This document shows positions 13,767 to 23,893 of a stretch of 23,893 nucleotides of DNA, piece by piece (within the stretch, counting starts at the first letter, position 1; each line of letters starts with the position of its first letter). Location of the stretch: positions 1 through 23,893 of the IMG/VR virus record IMGVR_UViG_3300028025_003152, one strand, 5' to 3'. Position numbers and translations under genes: made by a program. Source of the stretch: a virus. The notes under the pieces are model-generated. The model was not told the origin of the DNA. It made no database searches and was given only the letters and a program-made list of their open reading frames with translations.

Positions 13767-14450
13767 TTAATCCCACAGTCCTCTGTAATATCGGCCAAAC
13801 AGACGGAATCCATTGTCCATGCGGTCATACACTTTGCGTAAACCCTCATAGTCTAATTTATAGGTATGATTAGGTCCATGTTCCGTACTGTATAGTTTTG
13901 GTTTACCATTCTCATCCCATTCACATGGAACATGTTTAATATCAAGTTCACCTGAATGGTATGCTTCTTCCCACGTATCGTCAACAAGATGTTCGAAAGC
14001 AAAAATCATTTCATTAAGAACCCATTCCCAACGACGATGTGTCAACTCCCATGAGTCTTTTCCATACTCTTCTGGATTATCAAGATCAAGTGTATATTGT
14101 GATGACGCATCTTCATAACCAACCATACGTAGTTCTTCTGGTACATCTTCAAGATCAACAAGAGGTGAACCGTGTTTGGTATCACGCAGTTGCTTCAACA
14201 TCGGTAGAATGATATCTGCTAATGTGTGATCCATTGACCATGTATCATAATGATCAATCTTAACATAACTGATTCGTGGATGCACAAAATCAAGAAACTT
14301 TTGCCATGCTACACAAAATGGATTGAGGAAGTCGGAAAGTTTTTTGATGATTGGTTCATCATAATCAATCTCACGCCAAAAGAAAATCTTCTCCAATATA
14401 ACATAAGGAGAAAGCCAATGACTACGATAATTTGATTTGTATATTTTCAT
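13767..14450 (-). CDS. Conserved phage protein of unknown function (HWLSPY/DTWSMDHTLAD type)
   Basis: 227 aa. Contains SHWLSPYVILEKIFFWREID, DFVHPRISYVKIDHYDTWSM followed by DHTLADIILPMLKQL, and HRRWEWVLNEMIFAFEHLVD. I recall this arrangement from many tailed phages of different hosts, always unassigned. Rich in Trp, Tyr and acidic residues; no signal or membrane helix. The ATG lies about 15 bases after the terminal hairpin of the tmRNA coding piece and has no Shine-Dalgarno, so RNA processing of the tmRNA precursor might create its 5' end. Confidence 0.82.
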   Translation of the reverse strand: MKIYKSNYRSHWLSPYVILEKIFFWREIDYDEPIIKKLSDFLNPFCVAWQKFLDFVHPRISYVKIDHYDTWSMDHTLADIILPMLKQLRDTKHGSPLVDLEDVPEELRMVGYEDASSQYTLDLDNPEEYGKDSWELTHRRWEWVLNEMIFAFEHLVDDTWEEAYHSGELDIKHVPCEWDENGKPKLYSTEHGPNHTYKLDYEGLRKVYDRMDNGFRLFGRYYRGLWD

Positions 14451-14462
14451 AGTATAAAATTA

Positions 14463-14635
14463 GGTGGGAGTGATTGGTTAATAAGGACACTCCCGAAACC
14501 CCAAGTGAGTTACGCTGCTAGGCGATCTTCACCGTAGAATGCATCGTTTGCATTTATAGTTTTGCTTGATTTACAGTCATCGCCTACTGTGTTGCCTTCT
14601 CTACTATCTCACCCTGTCGAAACCTTGTCATCCCC
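14463..14635 (-). ncRNA. ssrA: tmRNA coding piece (mature 5' part with tag ORF)
   Basis: Begins GGGGATGACAAGGTTTCGAC then AGGG, the tmRNA 5' signature. A PK1-like pseudoknot can form: stem ACAGT/ACTGT (14590-14586 with 14577-14573), and loop GCGAT (14583-14579) with ATC..GC (14570-14564). PK1 ends 12 bases before the resume codon GCA (14551), with U at -5 and A at -4 as in E. coli U85/A86. The piece ends with hairpin GGGAGTG/CACTCCC (14494-14488 with 14472-14466). Confidence 0.88.
14510..14551 (-). other. tmRNA proteolysis tag reading frame, ANDAFYGEDRLAA
   Basis: From resume codon GCA at 14551 the frame reads ANDAFYGEDRLAA and stops at TAA (14512-14510). AND at the start and a C-terminal LAA are typical of tags that target ClpXP. 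The inner FYGEDR is unlike tags I remember. Confidence 0.9.
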
Positions 14636-14636
14636 A

Positions 14637-14780
14637 TCAAGAAGAAACTTTGTTAGAAAGCAGGGTCATCAATTTTCCAATATGTTCGTAAAGATTTTTG
14701 ATTTGTTCATCTTTACGGTCAATTGTTTCCTGAAGATATTTTATCAGGGTTTCTTGGTCTTTGATTTCCGTGGGTTTCAT
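14637..14780 (-). CDS. 47-aa coiled-coil-like protein encoded in the tmRNA spacer
   Basis: ATG at 14780 with AAAAAGGAATTTAAT upstream (AAGGA at good spacing), stop TGA at 14639-14637, one base before the mature 5' end of the coding piece. The product starts MKPTEIKDQETLIKYLQETI and continues DRKDEQIKNLYEHIGKLMTL; hydrophobic residues spaced in heptad fashion suggest a short coiled coil. It fills nearly the whole 159-base segment expected to be cut out of the tmRNA precursor. Codon positions look protein-like (charged helical sequence, no rare oddities). Function unknown; the Shine-Dalgarno directly abuts the CCA of the acceptor piece. Confidence 0.65.
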   Translation of the reverse strand: MKPTEIKDQETLIKYLQETIDRKDEQIKNLYEHIGKLMTLLSNKVSS

Positions 14781-14794
14781 ATTAAATTCCTTTT

Positions 14795-14862
14795 TGGTGG
14801 AGATGGAGGGAATCGAACCCTCGTCCAGAATGCCTTCGCTTTGAAGGAATTACAACAATTCT
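14795..14862 (-). ncRNA. ssrA: tmRNA acceptor piece (mature 3' part)
   Basis: The T arm is GAGGG-TTCGATT-CCCTC (14822-14806), directly followed by CATCTCC, A, CCA ending at 14795. Before the T arm comes CTGGAC (GGAC is usual here in tmRNA) and a hairpin-capable CCTTC/GAAGG. There is no anticodon arm of normal tRNA size, and the 5' half of the acceptor stem lies elsewhere, so this is not an ordinary tRNA. The 5' boundary is set near 14862, where the upstream small ORF ends, and is not certain. Confidence 0.87.
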
Positions 14863-14989
14863 ATCTTATGTAATTGCCAGTGACAACCACATAAATGAAC
14901 AAACACCAACCAAATCGTAATGCTATATCAAACCATCTTTCGAAATGATCGAGGAGTGTTTTATTTTCTTTCTTTGGTTCTATCATCAT
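14861..14989 (-). CDS. Small single-span membrane protein just upstream of the tmRNA
   Basis: 42 aa. ATG at 14989 overlaps the stop of the previous gene (ATGA type); a second ATG follows immediately. The N-terminus is polar and charged (MMIEPKKENKTLLDHFERWF) and the C-terminal part is one membrane helix (ALRFGWCLFIYVVVTGNY). The TAG stop lies at the presumed 5' edge of the acceptor piece. Charge pattern fits a single-helix membrane protein with cytoplasmic N-terminus; a holin- or lysis-related role is possible but not shown. Too short for routine gene callers; the overlap and composition support it. Confidence 0.6.
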   Translation of the reverse strand: MMIEPKKENKTLLDHFERWFDIALRFGWCLFIYVVVTGNYIR

Positions 14990-19528: not shown

Positions 19529-22126
19529 TCAGAATGTTATTGTACCTGTACTATTGAATTGATATACTCTTGTGGAACCTGTCTCCGAATAATAAACATT
19601 TGCACCCGTAATTACAGCATTTGAATTTGCTAATCCTGTGGCAAGAATAACTATACCCGAACCACCACTTCTACCACGGGCACCTGGTCCGTCACCATAG
19701 TTACCACCACCACCTCCACCTCCAGTGCTTGTATTACCAGCAGTTGATGTCCATGAAGGACCTTGTCCATCACCACCACCACCTAAACCACCTCGTGAAT
19801 TTAATCCCGTAACTAAATTACCACCACCGCCACCACCTCCAGCATAATATGTTGATGTACCTATGATAGATGATGTTAAACCATCTCCACCCGATCTTGA
19901 TGGTGCAGCATTTTTAGTTCCTGCGCTACCAGCACCACCACCACCACCAGAAAGATCGTTAGATGATGATTGTCCCACACTACCATTGTTACCCTGACCT
20001 GGCGTTCCTGAACCTGCGCCAGCATTTGGGCCACCGCCACCACCGCCGCCAGAACCACCTGCTTTACCCGCACCAACATTATAACCACCACCACCGCCGC
20101 CACCAGTAGACCATAATGATGTTGACACATTAAAGAATCCAGAGTTTGAACCATTAGTTCCCGCATATGAACCACCACCGCCAGGAGCAGATGCACCCGC
20201 ACCAACTTGAATTGTGTATGTGACTCCGCTTGTTATTGGATATGAACTTCCTGTTCTCATACCACCAGCACCGCCACCACCACCAATATCGCCTCCACCA
20301 GAACCTCCACCTGCAACGACAAGATAGTTCATCGTTGTTGGTGGTGGAGGTGGGGTTATAGTTATAGAACCTGTTGAATTGAATGTAAATATACGATTTC
20401 CACCCGATTCAGAATATAATGCTCCACTAAATGTAGAATTTGCTTCTGATGTGGGATATGAAATAACAACGAAACCTGAACCTCCACTACCACCGCTTGA
20501 AGCGTTTGGTCCACCAGTTCCACCGCCGCCACCACCGCCTCTGTTACCAGTAGCATTCGATGCTTGACCGCCACCATCACCTGTTGTTCCAGCAGTAGCA
20601 CTACCATCACCTGCTGAACCTGCTGATGGAAAAGCACCACTTGCACCACCACCACCTCCGGCAGCATAACTCACTGGTGTACCACTCATTGCTGATGTTA
20701 ATCCAACACCACCATTACCACCAGATGATGGCGTTCCATTAGCACCTGCTGCACCTGCACCACCACCACCACCACATGTAACGCCAGACCCAGGTTGTAC
20801 CGAATCACCACCACGATTACCTTGACCTGGTGTTCCTAATGCACCGCCAGTAAGATTAGTTCCAGCACCTCCACCTGAGCCGCCGGACCTTGTTTCAGCA
20901 ACTGGACCACCTTGTCCTCCTCCTCCACCACCACGTGCAACAATCAGTGAACCTATTGATGAATTAGAACCATTTCCACTTGATGATGATGCGTACACTC
21001 CTTTAGAACCACCACCACCAACCGTAACCGTATATAACACATTCTTAGGCACTGAAAGTCCTGTCCCAACTAAGAAACCACCACCACCGCCACCTCCACC
21101 ACGATCAGAACCTCCGCCACCACCACCAGCAACAACAAGATAGTTTATACTTGTAGTAGGTGCAGAACCACCCGCTAAAAAATTTATTGAGCCAGAACCT
21201 ATAAAGGAATAAATTCGTTTTCCACCGCCAGTCTCAACGTAACTTACTGTTCCTGTAGTAGTAGATAACTCTAATGTACTGTCGTAAGAAATAACAACAA
21301 TTCCACTGCCACCTTGACCAGCATATCCAGCCTGATTAATTGGTGAATTTGACCAAGCACCGCCGCCAGCACCACCAGTGCTGTTTGTACCGTTTGCTGC
21401 AATACCATTTTGTGAAGAACCTCCATCACCGCCTCCGCCTTTGTTAGCAGCAACAGGAGTGCCTCCACCTAATCCTCCAGAACCTATGTGACCTCCACCA
21501 CCTGCACCACCAGCATAATAAGTAGATGTTCCAGATATTGCAGATGTGAGAGCAGTACCGCCATTACCACCTGGTCCAGGTGCTGTACTATTTCCAGTAT
21601 CGGGTCTTGAATCTCCCACACCACCAGCACCACCACCACCAGCAGAATAACGGGTAGTCTGTGCGCTTCCACCATTGTTACCTTGTCCTGGAGTTCCTAA
21701 ACCACCAACAGCAACGCCAACAGGTCCACCACCAGCACCACCGCCAGAACCGCCTGACATACCAGCACCATAATATCCACCACCACCTCCACCAATTGCA
21801 GTGAGTGTTGCGAATGAAGAGTTTGATCCATTAGCACCTGTTGTGGAACCTGGTGCGGGTGTAAGTGGAGGAGATACACCACCAATACCACCAGCGCCTA
21901 CTGTTACAGTATAAGGTTGTCCTGATGTTACTGGAAATCCTGATCCAGTTAAAAAACCACCCGCACCACCACCGCCTGAAGCAGTTGAGTAATTTCCACC
22001 ACCACCGCCACCTCCACCACCAATGACAAGATAGTCTACATTAAATGTGGTTCCAGATCTACGAAGTGCTTTTATTAATCCAAATGCTCTAACAGAACCT
22101 GAACCTAAAGAAGAAATGATTGGCAT
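19529..22126 (-). CDS. Polyglycine repeat protein, likely tail fibre/adhesin
   Basis: 865 aa. A short head (MPIISSLGSGSVRAFGLIKA) is followed by three tandem modules of about 270-290 residues. Each starts with YLVxxGGGG (VDYLVIGGGG, INYLVVAGGG, MNYLVVAGGG), has TPGQGNNGG or similar, STYYAGGGGG or similar, then GSGIVVIS or similar, and ends with a beta-rich closing piece (KRIYSFIGSGSINF, NRIFTFNSTGSITI, TRVYQFNSTGTITF). Polyglycine loops like these recall the adhesins of T-even-like phages (gp38 type, polyglycine II), which contact the receptor; here it is an analogy, not homology. No catalytic domain. It follows the other polyglycine gene after a gap of only 7 bases and GTAAATAAAAT, a late-promoter-like sequence. 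Confidence 0.8.
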   Translation of the reverse strand: MPIISSLGSGSVRAFGLIKALRRSGTTFNVDYLVIGGGGGGGGGNYSTASGGGGAGGFLTGSGFPVTSGQPYTVTVGAGGIGGVSPPLTPAPGSTTGANGSNSSFATLTAIGGGGGGYYGAGMSGGSGGGAGGGPVGVAVGGLGTPGQGNNGGSAQTTRYSAGGGGAGGVGDSRPDTGNSTAPGPGGNGGTALTSAISGTSTYYAGGAGGGGHIGSGGLGGGTPVAANKGGGGDGGSSQNGIAANGTNSTGGAGGGAWSNSPINQAGYAGQGGSGIVVISYDSTLELSTTTGTVSYVETGGGKRIYSFIGSGSINFLAGGSAPTTSINYLVVAGGGGGGSDRGGGGGGGGFLVGTGLSVPKNVLYTVTVGGGGSKGVYASSSSGNGSNSSIGSLIVARGGGGGGQGGPVAETRSGGSGGGAGTNLTGGALGTPGQGNRGGDSVQPGSGVTCGGGGGAGAAGANGTPSSGGNGGVGLTSAMSGTPVSYAAGGGGGASGAFPSAGSAGDGSATAGTTGDGGGQASNATGNRGGGGGGGTGGPNASSGGSGGSGFVVISYPTSEANSTFSGALYSESGGNRIFTFNSTGSITITPPPPPTTMNYLVVAGGGSGGGDIGGGGGAGGMRTGSSYPITSGVTYTIQVGAGASAPGGGGSYAGTNGSNSGFFNVSTSLWSTGGGGGGGYNVGAGKAGGSGGGGGGGPNAGAGSGTPGQGNNGSVGQSSSNDLSGGGGGAGSAGTKNAAPSRSGGDGLTSSIIGTSTYYAGGGGGGGNLVTGLNSRGGLGGGGDGQGPSWTSTAGNTSTGGGGGGGNYGDGPGARGRSGGSGIVILATGLANSNAVITGANVYYSETGSTRVYQFNSTGTITF

Positions 22127-22133
22127 ATTTTAT

Positions 22134-23893
22134 TTACGTCCATTTAAGAATTACAATTCCGGAACCACCTGCACCACCAGATGCAATTGTTCCTGGTGTT
22201 TGTGCCCAACCTGAAGCACCACCTCCACCACCAGTTGCATAACTTCCTGAAGTTCCTTGTGTCGCTGCAACAGGTGTAAGACCAACACCACCAGCACCTC
22301 CTCCACCTTGACCACCAGAAGCAATGGGTCCTCCTTCAGCACCACCACCTCCACCTCCAGCATAATAAGTTGATGTGCCAGAAAGAGTAGATGTTAATCC
22401 TACACCACCTGCGCCTGCAGCGGCAGCAGAACCATTTGTTCCTGCTGCACCAGCACCTCCACCACCTGCGCCGCCATATGCTGGTGCACCTGCGGGTGCT
22501 CCAGTAAATGCACCACCGTTATTACCTTCACCTGGTGTTCCTAAACCCCCTATATATGGACTTGGTGCACCACCCGCTGCACCACCACCAGAACCTCCAT
22601 TTTGTCCTTGCCCTTTACCCCATGCACCACCGCCACCACCACCTGTTGACCAAACAGCAGGGAATGGTGATGAACTCCATATACCAGAATTGCTTCCGTT
22701 TGAACCTATTATTGTTGGCGCAGGTGCAGCCTGAAAACCTCCTGATCCTCCACTTCCAACAACAACTGATAGTGTTGAACCTGGTGTTACAGTTAAAGAC
22801 GGACTTGTGCGGAAACCTCCAGCACCACCTCCGCCACCATCTCCACCTCCACTGCCTCCACCGCCAGCAACAACAAGATATTGAAGTGATGTTATACCTG
22901 TTGGTACTGTGAATGAACCTGTGCCTGTGTATGTTACTAATTTATTTTGTGTAGTAGATATTTTAACGACGACTACGCCTGAACCACCTGCTCCACCATT
23001 ACCGTCAACTGCTGGACCAGCACCACCACCACCACCGCCGCCACCAGTGTTTGTAGTTCCTGCGGTTCCAGTTGCACCTGTAGGTGAACCACCATTGCCA
23101 CCAGCACCACCAGAACTTCCTCCACCAGCACCGCCAGCAAATGCTGGACCAGCACCACCACCACCACCGCCAGAATAACTTGTGTTTGAACCTGTGAATG
23201 ATGAATAAATTGAAAGACCACCAACAGCACCAATTCCTGGACCTGTGCCTGATAATGGATAACCCGATACTCCAGCACCACCAGCACCACCTCCACCAGC
23301 ACCAGAATATGGACTACCAGGTTGTGCTAAACCTCCATTGTTACCTTGACTCGGAGTGCCTAAACCAGCAGTAGGACCGCCTCCACCACCTGAACCACCA
23401 CTATTACCTGGAATATTCCATCTACCACCAGCACCACCGCCTCTAGCAACTGCTGTTCCGAACACAGAGTTTGATCCATTCGAACCACCAACTGGTCCAG
23501 ATGTTGATCCACTACCTCCAGCACCAACAACCACATTCATTGTAGTATTTGATACTATTGATAGTCCAGAACCTAATATTAAACCTCCAGCACCTCCACC
23601 ACCGCCGCTTGTGCCGCCACCGCCGCCACCACCGCCAGCAACAATCAGATAATCTACTGTAGTAATTCCATCGGGTACTAACCACTGTTGACTGCTTGCA
23701 AATGTCCATGTTGTTGTTGGATCAGCATAATAACGAAGAACAACAATTCCTGAACCACCAGCACCACCATTTGACGGATTGACTGATAAAGTACCAGGAC
23801 TAGCACCGCCACCTCCTCCGCCACTACTTGTATTAGCATCAAATCCATATTGTACTGTGCCACCCGAACTCGGATTAGTGCCTCCGGTACCGC
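22134..23893 (-). CDS. Polyglycine repeat protein, likely tail fibre/adhesin (5' part outside window)
   Basis: The frame stays open through the right window edge: upstream of the ATG at 23540 it continues VDYLIVAGGGG and, further, GGSGIVVLRYYADPTTTWTF, so that ATG is internal and the real start is outside. At least 586 aa are visible, ending GGSGIVILKWT. It has the same module type as the neighbouring gene (YLVVAGGGG, GTPGEGNNGG, STYYAGGGGGG), including VPTGITSLQYLVVAGGG at module borders. Probably a long fibre or adhesin. Gly-rich on the coding strand, so the plus strand is Pro/CCA-rich and full of false reading frames. Confidence 0.8.
   Translation of the reverse strand, partial: GTGGTNPSSGGTVQYGFDANTSSGGGGGGASPGTLSVNPSNGGAGGSGIVVLRYYADPTTTWTFASSQQWLVPDGITTVDYLIVAGGGGGGGGTSGGGGGAGGLILGSGLSIVSNTTMNVVVGAGGSGSTSGPVGGSNGSNSVFGTAVARGGGAGGRWNIPGNSGGSGGGGGPTAGLGTPSQGNNGGLAQPGSPYSGAGGGGAGGAGVSGYPLSGTGPGIGAVGGLSIYSSFTGSNTSYSGGGGGGAGPAFAGGAGGGSSGGAGGNGGSPTGATGTAGTTNTGGGGGGGGAGPAVDGNGGAGGSGVVVVKISTTQNKLVTYTGTGSFTVPTGITSLQYLVVAGGGGSGGGDGGGGGAGGFRTSPSLTVTPGSTLSVVVGSGGSGGFQAAPAPTIIGSNGSNSGIWSSSPFPAVWSTGGGGGGAWGKGQGQNGGSGGGAAGGAPSPYIGGLGTPGEGNNGGAFTGAPAGAPAYGGAGGGGAGAAGTNGSAAAAGAGGVGLTSTLSGTSTYYAGGGGGGAEGGPIASGGQGGGGAGGVGLTPVAATQGTSGSYATGGGGGASGWAQTPGTIASGGAGGSGIVILKWT

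Follow-up and report, generated by a model that had tools for sequence, protein, structure and literature searches.

Does the spacer between the two pieces of a permuted phage tmRNA, which is expected to be removed on maturation, also serve as a gene? The question is raised by a locus in a window of 23,893 nucleotides (the whole stretch of viral DNA analysed here, IMG/VR record IMGVR_UViG_3300028025_003152), in which the spacer holds an open reading frame. The phage-encoded two-piece tmRNA itself is an already known kind of gene: it accounts for 53 of 133 phage tmRNA structures, with 50 from marine or aquatic samples (PMC9004378), and 79 phage sequences are found in the tmRNA database paper of 2025, the source of the Rfam model RF04321 (PMC11915505). 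A sequence-only reading of this DNA had taken such a tmRNA in a phage for a novelty, which does not hold, since the arrangement is published (PMC9004378) and very common in related viral contigs. The most unusual feature of the locus, absent from that reading, is the putatively coding spacer. We propose that, in the permuted two-piece tmRNA which this phage encodes, the spacer is at the same time a gene for a small protein, a reading to which we assign a probability of about 0.83.

The permuted tmRNA and its surroundings

On the minus strand of the window, ARAGORN called a permuted tmRNA (tmRNA*, 14419-14887) with the tag ANDAFYGEDRLAA. The covariance-model search that the sequence-only reading had proposed as a check matched both RF04321 tmRNA_permuted (147.5 bits, E = 1.4e-29, 14857-14510) and RF01850 beta_tmRNA (134.3 bits, E = 3.4e-41, 14909-14460); the two scores are far above the gathering scores of 47 and 84, respectively, so that a chance match is excluded. 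By score the gene belongs to both families, including the beta-type one, and its acceptor piece lies 5′ of the mRNA-like piece, as in the permuted family. The sequence hallmarks of RF04321 are present, namely the 7-bp acceptor stem with the G3-U70 pair, the T arm, the encoded CCA, the resume codon and the tag frame (Table 1), and these, like the order of the parts, are common to the known permuted tmRNAs of RF04321 and RF01850. The earlier description of the gene as a permuted phage tmRNA of the alanine type, in two pieces that restore the acceptor stem, agrees with ARAGORN, with the two Rfam models and with the sequence. Moreover, on re-reading the sequence, the ends predicted for the processed RNA again fell at 14795 and 14635, and the mRNA-like piece again measured 173 nt. 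When the tmRNA was compared by blast with annotated phages, only short partial matches were obtained, covering at most 16% of the query.

Table 1. Positions of the features of the tmRNA locus in the window.
Feature	Position	Strand	Remarks	Basis
tmRNA acceptor (tRNA-like 3′) piece	14795-14862	-	5′ end approximate (RF04321 start = 14857)	ARAGORN, Rfam, sequence
T arm GAGGG-TTCGATT-CCCTC	14806-14822	-	aligned to RF04321/RF01850	sequence
Acceptor stem 3′ strand CATCTCC	14799-14805	-	pairs with 14635-14629, G3-U70 included	
A before CCA	14798	-		sequence
CCA closing the acceptor piece	14797-14795	-		sequence
Spacer (intervening sequence, IVS), 159 nt	14636-14794	-	removal expected during maturation	sequence, Rfam
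Closing-stem 5′ arm	14785-14794	-	contains Shine-Dalgarno AAGGA	arm pairing, fold prediction
Shine-Dalgarno AAGGA	14792-14788	-	just 3′ of CCA, inside closing-stem 5′ arm	
Small ORF within spacer, 47 codons + UGA: MKPTEIKDQETLIKYLQETIDRKDEQIKNLYEHIGKLMTLLSNKVSS	14637-14780	-	without detected homolog	sequence, shuffle test
Closing-stem 3′ arm AGTTTCTTCT	14640-14649	-	also ORF 3′ end	arm pairing, fold prediction
Conserved UGAU ahead of mature 5′ end	14636-14639	-	pairing with ACCA possible; UGA = spacer ORF stop	spacer comparison
mRNA-like piece, 173 nt, 5′ GGGGATG	14463-14635	-	3′ end approximate	ARAGORN, Rfam, sequence
Acceptor stem 5′ strand GGGGATG	14635-14629	-		sequence
Tag reading frame GCA...TAA, ANDAFYGEDRLAA	14510-14551	-	resume codon GCA 14551-14549; TAA ends at 14510	ARAGORN, sequence
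3′ hairpin of mRNA-like piece, GGGAGTG...CACTCCC	14466-14494	-		sequence, fold prediction

The neighbours are genes of a T4-like phage (tail tube cap, baseplate hub, ssDNA-binding protein, exonuclease and endolysin) and the record is a virus record, in line with the phage origin claimed earlier. The tmRNA stands in a tight row of genes on the same strand, since a 42-aa small ORF (14861-14989) ends directly upstream of it and a gene of phrog_11543 (14450-13767) begins 12 nt after its end. No terminator was found at the tmRNA locus, and promoter-like hexamers at 14886-14858 were not used, being too near the expected RNA 5′ end and not far above chance. Long glycine-rich repetitive ORFs, of a type known from phage tail fibre proteins, occupy 19529-23893 on the minus strand. 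In the contig that is closest by neighbour gene (L002, 97% identity), positions 1-712 hold an mRNA-like piece with a different tag, ANDNSYRLAA, and extra DNA, perhaps with a homing-endonuclease-like ORF on the opposite strand, lies between the tmRNA and the neighbour gene.

As for the origin of the gene, capture from a host had been suggested. In a tree of 102 permuted tmRNAs, built from the mature parts only, the window belongs to a supported clade of 18 that consists of phage genes only, and the 11 Burkholderiales genes in the sample fall outside it. The tree thus gives no support to a recent capture; an ancient one may have taken place. The need for host processing enzymes, also put forward for this putative two-piece tmRNA, is a reasonable assumption.

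The reading frame in the spacer

The spacer is almost wholly taken up by a single ORF, which starts with the ATG at 14780 and stops with the UGA at 14639-14637, one base ahead of the GGGG and of the predicted RNase P cut. Dinucleotide shuffling left the frame open in 4.6% of the trials, and both open and at least as phage-like in codon usage in 0.12% of them; among the six frames the sense frame is the best. An antisense ORF (14562-14873) was rejected, as its frame scores below that of the sense spacer frame. Taken alone, without the relatives, this evidence is suggestive only. No homologs of the spacer ORF were found in IMG/VR, so that selection on it is not measurable, and nine spacer proteins, joined, gave no match among 50,697 annotated phage records.

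Permuted tmRNAs were gathered via the neighbour gene, via the T arm and via AAGGA or AAAAAGG after the CCA, the last collection requiring neither a start codon nor an open frame. On viral loci related to the window, some of them overlapping or repeated, ARAGORN found about 100 tmRNAs, of which almost all are permuted. The comparison set is enriched by search design for AAGGA after the CCA. It contains 49 distinct spacers that have AAGGA, or in one case AAGGT, at that place, and in 47 of them an ATG comes close behind; one of the two others, L158, is bacterial. Of the 47 frames, 46 run on without a stop at least as far as the last 15 nt of the spacer, and in the remaining one (L147) a second ORF ends one base ahead of the mature 5′ end. 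As regards their stops, 21 use the UGA of the UGAU, 11 stop 9-13 nt before the end and 14 have none in the spacer, L147 standing apart. The joint open-frame probability for 32 spacers is 3e-17, if independence is assumed, and RF04321 was matched by fourteen coding-spacer loci, among others checked. Of the 37 distinct complete genes in the set collected by T arm only, 6 have coding spacers.

Thirty-five families were distinguished among 52 spacer proteins (the AAGGA set with L042, L068, L100 and the family of phage Melnitz, described below). One product is a complete 84-aa thioredoxin-like protein (L268; PF00085, 4.1e-21), another is a PGDYG-type protein, barely above the cut-off (L222), and a membrane peptide of 24 residues was found in the spacers of six phages. 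Across the seven families with homologs pN/pS was mostly 0.03-0.6, with a maximum of 0.70 in a 24-codon alignment, values that indicate purifying selection. The comparison points to the coding spacer as a recurrent design among the phage relatives, and dozens of aquatic phages appear to carry unrelated small proteins in the same tmRNA spacer. The literature search, confined to open-access papers, yielded no description of a permuted tmRNA with a protein gene in its spacer. L149 has a permuted tmRNA with a very short spacer ORF of 10 codons; a few kb away there are a GOLLD RNA (120-579; RF02032, 182 bits) and several tRNAs.

Coding and non-coding spacers share one layout, in which a stem right after the CCA is followed by UGAU and then by the mature 5′ end. 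Of the 47 coding spacers 45 end in TGAT, as do 46 of the 48 non-coding ones. The two stem arms of a coding spacer pair at 9.38 of 10 positions on average, compared with 8.06 (sd 0.13) when the partners are shuffled; for the non-coding spacers, with which L100 was grouped in this computation, the values are 9.68 and 8.07. Non-coding spacers, too, often begin with AAG. In the precursor, the mean predicted unpaired probability of the Shine-Dalgarno arm is 0.06 over the 47 coding spacers, the stem energies being single-sequence predictions. The window has the elements of the coding design, with a Shine-Dalgarno in the closing stem after the CCA, a start codon near it and an ORF open almost to the spacer end. 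Protein-level selection is seen in other spacer families, whereas the ORF of the window lacks a homolog for comparison; that it is protein-coding is likely, although not proven.

Bacterial genes gave a different picture. In the order of an Accumulibacter MAG, strong RF04321 matches were found in 14 of 300 genomes, with spans of 185-240 nt versus 348 nt in the window, and the readable spacers were short and none coding. In Pseudomonadota, 87 of 299 genomes had strong matches, with spans nearly all below 300 nt; the spacers of bacterial alpha-type genes were read by eye from a subset, and the Pseudomonadota spacers that were read contained no Shine-Dalgarno-led ORF. A strict coding-spacer pattern had 0 hits in 84,980 bacterial genomes, a count that is weak alone because the pattern fits only some bacterial T arms, and a looser one had 4 hits in 398 Pseudomonadota genomes, with no tmRNA among them by ARAGORN. 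The sampled Burkholderiales spacers are short hairpins, whereas that of the window measures 159 nt and contains an ORF. More generally, the bacterial members of RF04321 and RF01850 that were examined have a short non-coding spacer, a trait typical, though not strictly defining, of bacterial RF01850 members, and the ORF-filled spacer of the window departs from it. For the bacteria sampled, coding spacers appear to be absent.

Exchange of spacers and the cultured phage Melnitz

On the tree of the 102 tmRNAs, at least 13 changes between coding and non-coding spacers are needed, 8 of them forced by well-supported branches, and the clade of 18 around the window has mostly non-coding spacers. L125 and L133 are nearly identical in mature pieces, tag and flanks, but the spacer is coding in the former and non-coding in the latter; moreover, the spacer of L154 resembles a shortened remnant of the L125 ORF. 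The switches on the tree, this pair and the remnant argue that the spacer is an exchangeable slot, which unrelated small genes enter and leave in related phages. Near-identical spacers go with differing tags in L017/L018 and in L028/L035/L046/L047 (ANDAFYGEDRLAA, ANDETFALAA, ANDAFYGEERLAA, ANDNYYAMAA and ANDDYYALAA), as if the tag region had been exchanged separately from the spacer. The non-coding spacers of L003-L006, L014, L022 and L133 belong to recurring sequence types, common to phages with different tmRNAs, and these types may be structured RNAs; a search of the L004 spacer against Rfam for a known structured RNA or ribozyme returned tmRNA models only.

In the cultured OM43 phage Melnitz (MZ577097), the tmRNA at 45984-46436 is of the alpha type, and its spacer contains a 41-codon ORF with the Shine-Dalgarno GGAG that is missing from the annotation of the record. 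Relatives of the spacer protein were found in eighteen viral contigs, each directly after CTCCACCA. The family has a pN/pS of 0.2-0.4, some members carry an 8-codon in-frame insertion, L363 has an apparent frameshift, and the stop lies within the spacer in one branch, with none there in the other. Since this selected spacer ORF belongs to an alpha-type gene, coding spacers are found in phage tmRNAs of the alpha type as well as of the beta type. The Melnitz ssrA (PMC9004378) is like the locus of the window in being a two-piece tmRNA of a T4-like phage, in having genes for a PDDEXK nuclease and an ssDNA-binding protein nearby, and in its ORF-bearing spacer, the ORF being under selection in Melnitz. 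By contrast, it is alpha-type, has another tag and a glutamine riboswitch downstream, and its spacer encodes an unrelated protein and has no stop codon. The riboswitch (RF01739), published for Melnitz, lies just 3′ of the mRNA-like piece in L344 (46398-46446, Melnitz), L347, L357 and L361.

A proposed sharing of one RNA by a gene and a tmRNA

In the mechanism that we propose, a single transcript would contain the acceptor piece, the spacer as a mini-mRNA and the mRNA-like piece. Host tRNA-processing enzymes would cut 3′ of the CCA and 5′ of the GGGG, and the outer pieces would pair into a tmRNA which, judging from its family, would rescue stalled ribosomes together with host SmpB and alanyl-tRNA synthetase. 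The spacer protein would be translated from the Shine-Dalgarno and AUG, signals that are present in the sequence, and, because the Shine-Dalgarno sits in the closing stem, it would probably be made mainly on nascent RNA, ahead of transcription of the 3′ arm; closing of the stem would then favour tmRNA maturation. A further step, which we put forward tentatively and consider somewhat unlikely, is that the phage spacer has evolved into a slot for gene expression. Translating the nested gene and maturing the tmRNA would then be competing uses of a single RNA, and spacers without a stop would set free a mini-mRNA targeted by their own tmRNA, giving a built-in self-control.

Other explanations have to be weighed against a spacer that doubles as a protein gene. 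The spacer ORF could be translated mainly as a control device, with ribosomes delaying or timing tmRNA maturation, or with non-stop versions feeding the tmRNA, so that the peptide would matter little. The Shine-Dalgarno buried in the closing stem in 47 of 47 cases fits this idea, as do the 14 of 47 spacers without an in-frame stop, from which a cut before the GGG would leave a non-stop mini-mRNA. However, several families have kept their amino-acid sequence and a thioredoxin is among the products, so that at least in those cases the protein matters, and the Melnitz family is split over the spacer stop; we regard the control device as unlikely. More doubtful still is an ordinary phage two-piece tmRNA in which the ORF is a chance open frame, within a long non-coding spacer that serves only the closing hairpin. 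The ORF of the window is without a homolog, close relatives have mostly non-coding hairpin spacers and the open frame alone has a probability of about 0.05, all of which would suit a chance frame; on the other hand, the Shine-Dalgarno, start, codon usage and UGA placement fit the spacers that are under protein-level selection elsewhere, and the collected spacers lacking such an ORF measure 28-127 nt, compared with 159 nt in the window.

A decayed or non-functional copy of a tmRNA might be suspected from a spacer that is unusually long beside those of the sampled bacteria. Instead, no damage is seen in the acceptor stem with its G3-U70 pair, in the T arm and CCA, or in the resume codon and tag. 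The RF04321 score of 147.5 bits is within the bacterial range, and identity to phage relatives in the mature parts reaches 92%; since the functional parts are intact, we reject decay as extremely improbable.

If the spacer is indeed a gene, an RNA regarded as waste of tmRNA maturation would carry selected protein genes in many phages, probably overlooked since annotation labels the whole locus as tmRNA. This would add a number of small phage proteins that annotation has missed, including one from a cultured phage, and the sharing of one molecule by translation and RNA processing becomes directly testable.

Second genes inside tmRNA genes have been described before: homing endonuclease genes are carried by group I introns of tmRNA genes, and the spacer of one permuted tmRNA has a nested tRNA-Ala gene (PMC11915505). 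Those systems are T-loop introns or an RNA gene, whereas the window and its relatives would have varied small protein genes in the permuted spacer, with start signals built into the closing stem. The arfA of E. coli is a separate gene, which encodes a back-up rescue factor. Its non-stop mRNA is under the control of trans-translation (PMC10107115), and in some relatives of the window the tmRNA could act in the same way on the non-stop spacer; unlike arfA, the spacer ORF of the window has a stop codon.
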